From the NCBI GenBank assembly GCA_016190205.1, contig JACPQZ010000021.1, positions 1 to 30,946 of the forward strand: a DNA stretch of 30,946 nucleotides. The letters are read 5' to 3'. Under the pieces are notes generated by a model, which was given only the letters and a program-made list of their open reading frames with translations, was not told where the DNA came from and did no database searches. Below are positions 5,345-26,687 of the stretch, piece after piece. Every line of letters begins with the position of its first letter. The stretch's first letter is position 1. The position numbers and the translations under genes were made by a program. Source of the DNA: Candidatus Omnitrophota bacterium. Its GTDB lineage: Bacteria; Omnitrophota; JACPQZ01.

Positions 5345-5584
5345 GGATTGGGAGACTGAAGACTACAGACTTAAACGACTTGCACGTATCTCGTATCTTG
5401 TGAAGCGTATCTCGCAATTCAACCGACCGACCACTTCGGTCATCGGTGTTCGGTGATCGGTTATCGCAAGAAAAAGAAACATGACGGGCCTTAAGCTTTC
5501 GGCTTTTGCGGATGGCTGAAAGCTGACGGCTTCACGCTTCACGAGCGATTGCTTTTTGCCAGCGACAAGCGACCAGCGACTGAA
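5345..5584 (+). repeat. Composite heptamer-repeat array
   Basis: This fills the aroA upstream gap. Words of about 7 bp change family along the stretch: GACTGAA/GACTACA near 5352-5370, CGTATCT units at 5385-5415, ATCGGTG/TTCGGTG/ATCGGTT at 5442-5466, GCTTTCGG/GCTGAAAG words at 5494-5530, and AGCGACA/AGCGACC/AGCGACT at 5561-5581. A 31-base stretch, 5449-5479, is identical to 21923-21953. Another, 5385-5415, differs by one base from 26547-26577. There is no coding sequence and no clear promoter. Confidence 0.8.
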
Positions 5585-6802: not shown

Positions 6803-7000
6803 AAGAAACCAGATACCAGTTACCAGTAACCAGAAGATACCAGAGACCAGAAACCAGATAAATCCGGAATTCGAAATTCGAAATCTCCAAACCCGGCTTA
6901 AAATATTCGAATTTAGGTCATTCGAATTTGTTCGCGCTTCGTATCTCTCTGGTTTCTGGAATCTATCTGGTAACTGGTTTCTGGTTTCTGGTTTCTTCTT
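6803..7000 (+). repeat. Inverted-repeat heptamer element, copy 1 (198 bp)
   Basis: The element fills most of the 337-bp gap between the divergent genes at 6695 and 7033. The left arm is a run of ACCAGAT/ACCAGTT/ACCAGTA heptamers (6805-6857), followed by ATTCGAA words (6870-6890). The right half carries the inverse words (TTCGAAT near 6905-6930, then CTGGTTT/CTGGAAT/CTGGTAA to 7000). The first 43 bases (6803-6845) are identical to 19561-19603. The last 45 (6956-7000) match 19785-19829 at 43 positions. It looks like a non-autonomous element with degenerate terminal inverted repeats beginning AAGAA. The rest of the gap holds two putative promoters. Confidence 0.8.
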
Positions 7001-19140: not shown

Positions 19141-19159
19141 GAGCCATCCCTCACTGAAA

Positions 19160-19292
19160 AATCCGAAATTCGAATGTCGAAATCCGAAACAAATTCAAAA
19201 TTCGAATTCAGAAATTCGAAACCGAGAGCTTCGTATTTCGAATTTCGGTCATTCGAATTTGCTTCGTGCTTCGAATTTCGAGTTTCGAATTT
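19160..19292 (+). repeat. ATTCGAA-type inverted heptamer array
   Basis: This fills the purS-purQ gap. The left half has ATTCGAA/AATCCGAA words, the right half the inverse TATTTCG/AATTTCG words, with a core (GCTTCGTGCTTCG) shared with 6925-6941 and 19728-19740. It could fold into an imperfect long hairpin in the purine transcript. Confidence 0.8.
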
Positions 19293-19560: not shown

Positions 19561-19829
19561 CAAGAAACCAGATACCAGTTACCAGTAACCAGAAGATACC
19601 AGATGCCAGACACCAGGACGAGTCCGAAATCCGAATACCGTCCGCCTCGGGCAGAAATACCGAGCCATGTCGTAATTTGAACTTAGAAGTTCAAAACCCG
19701 GGGTTCAACATTTCGGATTTCGAATTTGTTCGTGCTTCGAATTTCGTATTTCGAATTTTATCCGTTCGCTCTGGTATCTGGTTACTGGAATCTATCTGGT
19801 AACTGGTTACTGGTTTCTGGTATCTTCTT
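19561..19829 (+). repeat. Inverted-repeat heptamer element, copy 2 (269 bp)
   Basis: This occupies nearly all of the 301-bp purC-purS gap. Order: ACCAGTA-type arm (19563-19615), CCGAAAT words, a central perfect 9-bp stem with a 2-base loop (19677-19696), TTCGAAT words with the GTTCGTGCTTCG core, then the inverse CTGGTAT/CTGGTTA arm to 19829. Both ends match copy 1 at 6803-7000 (43/43 and 43/45 bases), while the interior is longer and diverged. Confidence 0.82.
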
Positions 19830-21852: not shown

Positions 21853-21870
21853 GCATTCCCTTATATCACT

Positions 21871-22062
21871 GCTTCGCTTATCGGTGTTCGGTGATCGGTT
21901 ATCACCAATTCGTTTATCGGTTTTCGGTGATCGGTTATCGCAAGAAAAAGAAATACGATGGGCCTTCAGCCCCCAGCTTACAGCTGACAGTGCTTGCGAT
22001 GACCGACAAACGATCACCGATAAACGATCCTGCGATCACCGATGACCGATCAACGAGCGACG
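21871..22062 (+). repeat. ATCGGTG-type inverted heptamer element
   Basis: About 190 bp between purB and tRNA-Glu. The left arm is TTATCGG/TGTTCGG/TGATCGG units (21878-21942), the right arm is the inverse ATCACCG/ATAAACG/ATGACCG/ATCAACG units (21997-22055). The middle holds GGGCCTTCAGCCC-type words. Bases 21923-21953 are identical to 5449-5479. Confidence 0.8.
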
Positions 22063-22101
22063 AACAAGTCGCAGTTCGCTGTGTTGGGCGGCGCGGCTCA
22101 C

Positions 22102-22433: not shown

Positions 22434-22620
22434 GCTCGTACTGCGTTGTGCGTACTGCGTACTGCGAGAAAAATACCTGTTACAAATACAAAAACCCCGT
22501 GACTACCCGTTCTGTGTTGTGCGTGAAAAACCATGTCCGCAAAATGTGCACCGTTAACTTTTAATTATTTTTGAGAACAGGGCTCGCATCCCTTACGCTG
22601 TACGCAGTACGCTGTACGAA
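22434..22620 (+). repeat. TACTGCG-type inverted heptamer element
   Basis: About 187 bp between PEPCK and tRNA-Leu. The left arm has TACTGCG/TTGTGCG units (22438-22466), the right arm the inverse TACGCTG/TACGCAG units (22594-22619). The 125-bp middle is AT-richer and holds no reading frame I believe. The right arm reaches the PEPCK stop codon. Confidence 0.75.
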
Positions 22621-24591: not shown

Positions 24592-24790
24592 TGTTGGAGG
24601 AAGGACGATGGAAGAGAGAGGAAAACGAAAAATCGCTGTCCGCTGTTAAATCGCCGAACCCGCACGGCCGCTCCCAGATACCCCAAAGGGCGTTCCTTTC
24701 CATTCTTTCCTCTTGTTTCTTGCTTATTTTTTTACTTCTTTCCTCCTTCCTCCTTCCTCCCTCGTACCGGTGTCTCCCTCTCAAATCGTC
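24592..24790 (+). repeat. GGAGGAA-type purine-rich inverted array
   Basis: Most of the 214-bp gap between tRNA-Gln and the HEAT gene is low-complexity. Plus-strand GGAGGAAGGACGATGGAAG (24594-24612) is answered by the inverse TTCCTCC heptamers at 24739-24762. The array runs into the 3' end of the HEAT-repeat gene. A 71-codon frame here is purely repeat-derived. Confidence 0.65.
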
Positions 24791-25977: not shown

Positions 25978-26135
25978 TGTTCGTACTGCGTACAGCGTAC
26001 TGCGTACAGCGTACTGCGTAATGCGTGGAACGTGAAGCGTGGAGCGGATAGCGTATAGAATAAACCCCCCTTTCCTATACGCTCTACGCTATACGCTCTA
26101 CGCTACCCGTTGCGTACTGCGTACCCCGAGATTCA
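25978..26135 (+). repeat. TACTGCG/CTATACG drifting heptamer array
   Basis: This is the clearest heptad array in the window: TACTGCG, TACAGCG, TACTGCG, TACAGCG, TACTGCG, TAATGCG, TGGAACG, TGAAGCG, TGGAGCG, GATAGCG in unbroken 7-bp register (25984-26053). A CCCCCC-containing centre is followed by CTATACG/CTCTACG units (26076-26104) and TGCGTACTGCG. It fills the gap between the HEAT gene and the PilZ gene. Confidence 0.85.
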
Positions 26136-26536: not shown

Positions 26537-26687
26537 CTATCGTGCGCGTATCTCGTATCTCGTGAAGCGTATCTCGCTAACCATCGCTCGTCAATCGCCT
26601 GTCGTGAGGGGTGTGTGATGGGTGCTGAGACAGTCGCATCACTCACCACTCAGCACACACGACAGACGTTGCTTGCTGAAGTGCGCT
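26537..26687 (+). repeat. TATCTCG-type array and GTGCTGAG inverted words
   Basis: Gap between PilZ and gltX. Bases 26547-26577 (CGTATCT units) match 5385-5415 at 30 of 31 positions. From 26597 to 26668, words such as CTGTCGTG, GTGATGGGTGCTGAG and their inverses (CTCAGCAC, CACGACAG) form an imperfect inverted repeat. Confidence 0.72.

Follow-up and report, generated by a model that had tools for sequence, protein, structure and literature searches.

That heptamer repeats are in excess in bacteria has been on record since at least 2007, and no cause is generally accepted (PMC4692102). The GGGAATC repeats of Xanthomonas follow the pattern GGGANTN with conserved and variable positions, consist mostly of four units and are mostly intergenic, and 70-75 cases per genome form convergent inverted pairs; G-quadruplexes are the explanation offered there (PMC4692102). 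Three heptamers reported from Calothrix are cited in the same text (PMC4692102). TAACTGA repeats of marine Beggiatoaceae, cyanobacteria and Bacteroidetes are likewise intergenic tandem heptamers (PMC4679880). Rickettsia palindromic elements (RPEs) are ~150 bp long, encode a conserved peptide and form many small dispersed palindromic families per genome, which lie in gaps and in frame within unrelated conserved genes (PMC10969869). The BrickBuilt MITE of Porphyromonas gingivalis occurs as 19 copies of one family, with a 23-bp tandem unit between a leader and a tail (PMC4596501).

The DNA analysed here, referred to as the window, is a stretch of 30,946 nucleotides (contig 7) from the draft genome G000 of an Omnitrophota MAG (1.65 Mb, 76 contigs, 92.8% complete), from which 1.11 Mb of sequence was analysed. 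The nearest named relatives of the glutamyl-tRNA synthetase in the window were Omnitrophota MAGs, at 44-53% identity. Heptamer arrays fill many of the gaps, and they appear to resemble RPEs most closely in behaviour and the Xanthomonas repeats most closely in structure. Like RPEs they comprise several dispersed palindromic families in one genome, with many word families, inverted pairs and block copies. The likeness is one of behaviour; the arms are heptamer arrays whose period of 7 keeps no frame, and the in-gene units of a second genome, G056, are single runs. STRR heptamers of filamentous cyanobacteria, with which the initial annotation had compared the arrays, share the period of 7, the tandem arrangement and the intergenic location; we know of no inverted pairing or two-ended copies in STRRs. 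That comparison is apt for the period only, and the Xanthomonas repeats, which also form convergent inverted pairs, are closer (PMC4692102). Related words (CGGGAATC) with the same polarity are present in the Omnitrophota arrays. However, one word family per genome is described for Xanthomonas, against well over ten in G000, and neither two-ended dispersed copies nor in-frame insertions are reported in the available part of that text (PMC4692102). G-quadruplexes cannot cover the G-poor words of the Omnitrophota arrays. TAACTGA is one base off the Omnitrophota word ACCAGTTA, but its repeats are nearly all direct, consist of one word and stand immediately upstream of start codons, and related words are rare (PMC4679880). 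The arrays share with BrickBuilt a dispersed, intergenic, MITE-like character and a tandem repeat, and differ from it in unit, layout and number of families (PMC4596501).

Results

Seven-base periodicity

The ten gaps of the window described in the initial annotation as built from words of about 7 bp were re-examined by lag analysis and, independently, by TRF. Lag-7 identity was 0.42-0.63 in these gaps and 0.24-0.26 after dinucleotide shuffling; in each gap 0 of 500 shuffles matched the real value. TRF reported a period of 7 in 10 of 10. The stretch 25984-26053 keeps its 7-bp register (lag-7 identity 0.76), and all the word families that had been listed exist. The autocorrelation of intergenic DNA, which had been suggested as a check, gave 0.329, 0.306 and 0.294 at lags 7, 14 and 21 in G000 over a background of ~0.257; no lag-7 peak was seen in its coding DNA (1.11 Mb sampled). 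Of the 323 sampled gaps of 60 bp or more, 115 held lag-7 arrays, 203 in all, and each of the other lags from 4 to 11 yielded 1-11 arrays. By a strict window test, arrays covered 17% of intergenic DNA.

The arrays are intergenic tandem 7-bp units, as in heptameric SSRs, with 4-5 constant and 2-3 variable positions per word and often four words per arm. The observation of 7-bp arrays is real and no artefact, and local drift does not explain them. Heptamer arrays, as between 26039 and 26359, were frequently open in several reading frames, so that automatic annotation may call spurious ORFs across them.

Inverted pairing and fixed polarity

The arrays of the window are arranged as inverted pairs, forming long stems broken by evenly spaced mismatches; in predicted RNA stems a mismatch occurs about every seven bases. 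The features are collected in the table below.

Table. Heptamer arms, blocks and hairpins in the gaps of the window, and loci of in-frame runs in G056
Feature	Position	Strand	Evidence
CGTATCT / TCGGTGA heptamer blocks, gap upstream of EPSP synthase gene	5384..5466	.	TRF period 7; lag-7 0.48, 0/500 shuffles
Opposing GCTGA / GCTTCAC / AGCGACA blocks, gap upstream of EPSP synthase gene	5519..5584	.	TRF; raw sequence
ACCAG arm, end type E1: 4 words, linker AAGAT, 3 words	6803..6858	+	arm alignment
Inner CGAAATT-type arm, nested in ACCAG element	6859..6886	+	TRF 6860-6884
Inner TTCGAAT arm, inverted partner of 6859..6886 arm	6905..6931	-	sequence
CTGGT arm, end type E2, inverted partner of 6803-6858	6948..6997	-	inverted repeat I6/I11, 88-96% complementary; fold z -11.1
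CGAAATT hairpin, 41-nt arms, 1-nt loop	9064..9146	.	inverted repeat I2, 80% complementary; fold z -7.1
CGAAATT left arm	19159..19221	+	TRF; inverted repeat I3
TTCGAAT right arm	19228..19292	-	TRF; inverted repeat I3; fold z -4.0
ACCAG arm, end type E1, word order as in 6803-6858	19561..19616	+	arm alignment
Inner TTCGAAT arm	19710..19758	-	TRF
CTGGT arm, end type E2	19770..19829	-	inverted repeats I12/I15/I16; fold z -9.7
TCGGTTA left arm	21868..21944	+	inverted repeat I1, 77-nt arms
TAACCGA right arm	21993..22069	-	inverted repeat I1; fold z -11.4
CGTACTG left arm	22436..22466	+	TRF
CAGTACG right arm	22594..22620	-	TRF; predicted fold
GGAGGAA-type left arm	24596..24632	+	inverted repeat I5
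TTCCTCC right arm	24724..24761	-	inverted repeat I5; TRF
Outer CGTACTG/CGTACAG array	25982..26023	+	TRF score 78
'Morph' arm CGTGGAACGTGAAGCGTGGAGCGGATAGCGTATAG	26024..26058	+	inverted repeat I8; ordered series recurs at L012:15934-16160, related series at L026:10402-10639
CTATACGCTCTACGC right arm, pairs with 26024-26058	26075..26109	-	inverted repeat I8; predicted fold
CGTATCT block	26547..26576	+	TRF
GTGTGATG...CACTCACC hairpin	26602..26668	.	raw sequence; family also at L024:8661
G056 loci with in-frame ACCAG runs	L246 1264-2403; L240; L243; L251; L252; L255

In two gaps of the window CGAAATT arms are enclosed concentrically by ACCAG arms. Polarity was fixed across G000: 5'-ACCAG..CTGGT-3', CGTAC..GTACG, TCGGT..ACCGA, and others alike. 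Two or more inverted pairs were seen for 22 core 5-mers, of which 21 kept a single orientation and one stood at 5:1; the cores overlap and represent fewer than 22 independent families. In a strict 5-mer test an inverted partner was present in just 51 of 170 gaps with a lag-7 repeat. The median fold z was -3.8 in 60 array gaps and -0.9 in 60 other gaps; it was near chance in the window gaps starting at 5345, 24592 and 26537 and in the stretch 25984-26053. The copy of the hairpin family at L024:8661 has a predicted fold of -41.7 kcal/mol. The convergent inverted pairs are of the Xanthomonas type. Inverted pairing, fixed polarity and insertions in genes were missed by the initial annotation.

Dispersed copies and inherited word order

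About 60 ACCAG arms share a common layout of four words, a step of 10-11 nt and three words. Identity of the spacers was 0.65 at the same position across copies and 0.36 across positions within one arm. Two end types, E1 and E2, were distinguished. With a linker rule based on the second half of the arm alone, 18 of the 26 pairs joined E1 with E2; the remaining 8 came out as E1/E1, and among these several had E2-like spacers. Matching within pairs of arms was 0.35, compared with 0.58 ± 0.045 for shuffled partners; thus, the E1 end tends to face the E2 end. Such poor matching argues against hairpin-templated correction between the arms and in favour of copies of an asymmetric ancestor. In nearly every CGTACTG pair one end carries a deviant third word. 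Counted from the outer end, the third word was deviant 14:2 in CGTACTG (14 of 16 four-slot arms) and 7:1 in ACCAG (7 of 8 four-slot arms); as a rule for all families, the odd third word failed outside these two.

Several families had full-length copies that lay among unrelated genes, in both orientations, and agreed at 80-95% over 150-200 bp. At L012:15934-16160 the series TACTGCG > TGGAACG > TGAAGCG > GATAGCG is found again, its order kept and its orientation reversed; this locus is 91% identical to positions 25978-26110 of the window over 56 nt and 74% over 139 nt. Because word order is common to copies at separate loci, the unit-to-unit change is mostly inherited and not fresh local drift. 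The initial annotation was right that the words change from unit to unit, but what it called drift is mostly a fixed order held in common with copies elsewhere. It had also set against its own reading that the arrays might be decayed copies of one longer unit; in part this is so, as the arrays are arms of longer dispersed elements, with the 7-bp peak present.

Terminal inverted repeats and dispersed non-coding copies, as in MITEs, were both found. Five aligned copies showed no evident target-site duplication, and no gene-sized element was noticed between the arms among the listed ACCAG arms (1.11 Mb of G000 covered). Near-identical TCGGT elements at L047 4129-4588 and L063 1-439 (93% over 192 bp, one 7-nt indel) each lie directly downstream of a putative tRNA gene. 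Two non-heptameric dispersed repeats were also seen: GGCGCCCTTCGGAGCGAACCTCATTTTTTG..., ~180-200 bp and 90% identical, at L013 14438-14723, L024 12470-12670 and L032 1-266, and GGACCAAAGGTCCTCAACGTAG..., at least 92% identical, at L068 3861-4264, L071 15898-16069 and L018 17363-17726.

Slippage in 7-nt steps and local expansion

Indels between aligned copies measured 7 nt in 21 cases and 4, 5, 6, 8 and 9 nt in 17, 4, 9, 5 and 1, a tendency rather than a rate, as the pairs are non-independent. The closest long copy pairs differed by single 7- or 14-nt steps. The excess of exactly 7-nt indels supports the 7-bp slippage that had been proposed as a copying process; judged from the aligned copies, unit slippage appears to be real but secondary.

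Independent expansion in each gap would begin with polymerase slippage, 7 bp being favoured by the polymerase footprint, and later drift with hairpin-templated correction would yield the inverted arms. Besides the 7-nt indels, this agrees with the heptamer SSR excess across bacteria, for which a polymerase-footprint cause has been proposed (PMC4692102), and with similar words elsewhere, such as the perfect (ATACCAG) array of a Klebsiella plasmid and the AATGTATAATG arrays of a Cloacimonadota genome. However, separate loci agree in word order, in position-specific spacers and in having two distinct ends, full-length copies are found at several of them, polarity is fixed, and correction predicts matching arms where paired ACCAG arms match less than random pairs. 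Local expansion is quite unlikely as the explanation and is already largely refuted for the ACCAG, CGTACTG and TCGGT families; as a full account, local slippage with drift is ruled out for the main families, in which loci share word order and carry block copies. Local expansion could still apply to small families and to how the first arm arose.

Arrays within genes and gene context

In-frame arrays deep within the conserved genes CarA, GltB and KdsB of G000 coincide with residues that solved homologues lack; KdsB, with a replaced loop, is the weaker case. The in-frame array of PolA falls in the exonuclease domain, within a stretch that the printed Taq alignment does not cover. G056, which belongs to another Omnitrophota family, carries four-word ACCAG runs of ~30 nt in frame in PheS and MetG, with two insertions of 11 and 15 extra residues in PheS. 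In-frame insertion in conserved protein genes, the RPE behaviour, was found in all of these. Going by reading frame alone, ACCAG runs are also present in a putative PolA of G056 and probably in CobQ, RfbD (twice), CysS, HemB and YidC, which we take to be these genes by inspection. The PolA loop that holds the run in G056 also holds the heptamer run of G000, and the two runs are unrelated. All in-gene runs of G056 lie in the sense encoding the hydrophilic peptide NQKPxTxNQK, as expected of survivors. They are single runs of about four words and not palindromes, and the inserting unit may therefore be one arm rather than a hairpin. The in-gene insertions represent protein-level empty sites and are the best evidence for arrays entering new places. 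PPDK at L066:4531-7230 first looked like an insertion and was discarded in view of the normal PPDK sequence.

Arrays were found in 33% of co-oriented, 20% of divergent and 14% of convergent gaps. In co-oriented gaps they began at a median of 5 nt past the upstream stop, gene starts being approximate. This position and the strong predicted stems would suit functional RNA or transcription elements kept by selection, either bidirectional terminators or mRNA stabilisers, with the words as interchangeable blocks. However, arrays are rarest between convergent genes, the opposite of what is expected of a bidirectional intrinsic terminator, and convergent terminators are ruled out by this gene orientation. 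Selection for such a function also leaves the insertions within essential genes unaccounted for, and array density inside the one phylum runs from zero to ~40-60 per 100 kb in 23 sampled relatives, some samples being small or picked near matches. We consider this explanation very improbable.

Transposase and reverse transcriptase genes

REPINs have inverted paired arms, an intergenic bias and fixed polarity. The arrays share all of these as intergenic paired inverted units, and four Y1_Tnp genes are present in G000, which would fit mobilisation by RAYT (Y1) transposases. However, the array nearest to each lay at 101 nt, 1.3 kb and 2.7 kb, with none within 4 kb of the fourth, so that the genes are generally not flanked by arrays, and no GTAG-type REP foot was noticed. 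Copy number was likewise unlinked to array density in relatives: G012 had 6 Y1_Tnp genes and zero arrays in 23 kb, G005 zero Y1_Tnp genes and 5 arrays in 23 kb. We give the REPIN/RAYT explanation hardly any credence. At L144 1-3200 a Y1_Tnp (RAYT-like) gene is flanked by partly duplicated RHS-type sequences. Reverse-transcriptase-templated addition of heptamers was rejected, as no RVT_1 match was found in G000 (92.8% complete), G056, G035 or G026.

Relatives, viruses and plasmids

The 17-mer GCGTATAGCGNATAGCG was present in 44 of 285 Omnitrophota genomes (reversed control, 4). The ACCAGWW run was abundant only in G000 (52 sites) and G056 (55 sites), with a control of 0; by genome count there was no excess (6 against 4). 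Direct ACCAGWW arrays occur in 22 IMG/VR viral contigs (L208-L229), in many cases a few bases ahead of a start codon, and contigs L221, L224 and L226 carry ACCAGTA and TGATAAC (the TAACTGA word of Beggiatoa) in opposing directions. ACCAG heptamers on Klebsiella plasmids are direct; pC957_2 (L231 782-865) has a perfect array of about twelve ATACCAG units in the gap between a hok-type and a hypothetical gene. The Cloacimonadota genome G285 (L132, L232-L239) contains many AATGTATAATG-type and CTCTAAA-type heptamer arrays, some morphing between words. Xanthomonas words were found in 0 of 229 sampled Gammaproteobacteria genomes, which says nothing on Xanthomonas itself.

Discussion

The gaps are probably occupied by a multi-family population of dispersed, non-coding, quasi-palindromic mini-elements that are copied as blocks and undergo slippage of 7-bp units. 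Each arm would be a short run of a 7-bp word facing an inverted partner of fixed polarity. Whole elements would be duplicated to new chromosomal sites in either orientation with word order and two distinguishable ends kept, a pattern shown for ACCAG and clear for CGTACTG, and slippage would afterwards add single 7-bp units to the copies or remove them. Insertions, in-frame ones among them, would survive in gaps, at open gene ends and in protein loops that tolerate them. The copying machinery may be a transposase acting in trans, or ectopic recombination or template switching between hairpins. Most copies are presumably selfish or near-neutral; any effect that they have as mRNA hairpins between co-oriented genes would be secondary.

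It is conceivable, if rather doubtful, that these elements belong to an undescribed mobile-DNA system of Omnitrophota. In such a system short runs of 7-bp words would be the unit inserted, and a mechanism specific for length but not for sequence, tolerant of word change, would write or copy about four heptamers into gaps and, with the frame kept, into essential proteins; neither RAYT nor reverse transcriptase would take part. The heptamers of Xanthomonas, Beggiatoa and cyanobacteria would be further manifestations of this system. No description of such elements in Omnitrophota was found in the part of the literature covered. The many families with their fixed polarity, two-ended copies and 7-nt indels, together with the insertions kept in frame within aminoacyl-tRNA synthetases and DNA polymerase, make it testable whether the 7 bp come from slippage or from an insertion machinery. 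The insertions also suggest a second case, after Rickettsia, in which essential proteins gain peptides from small repeats.
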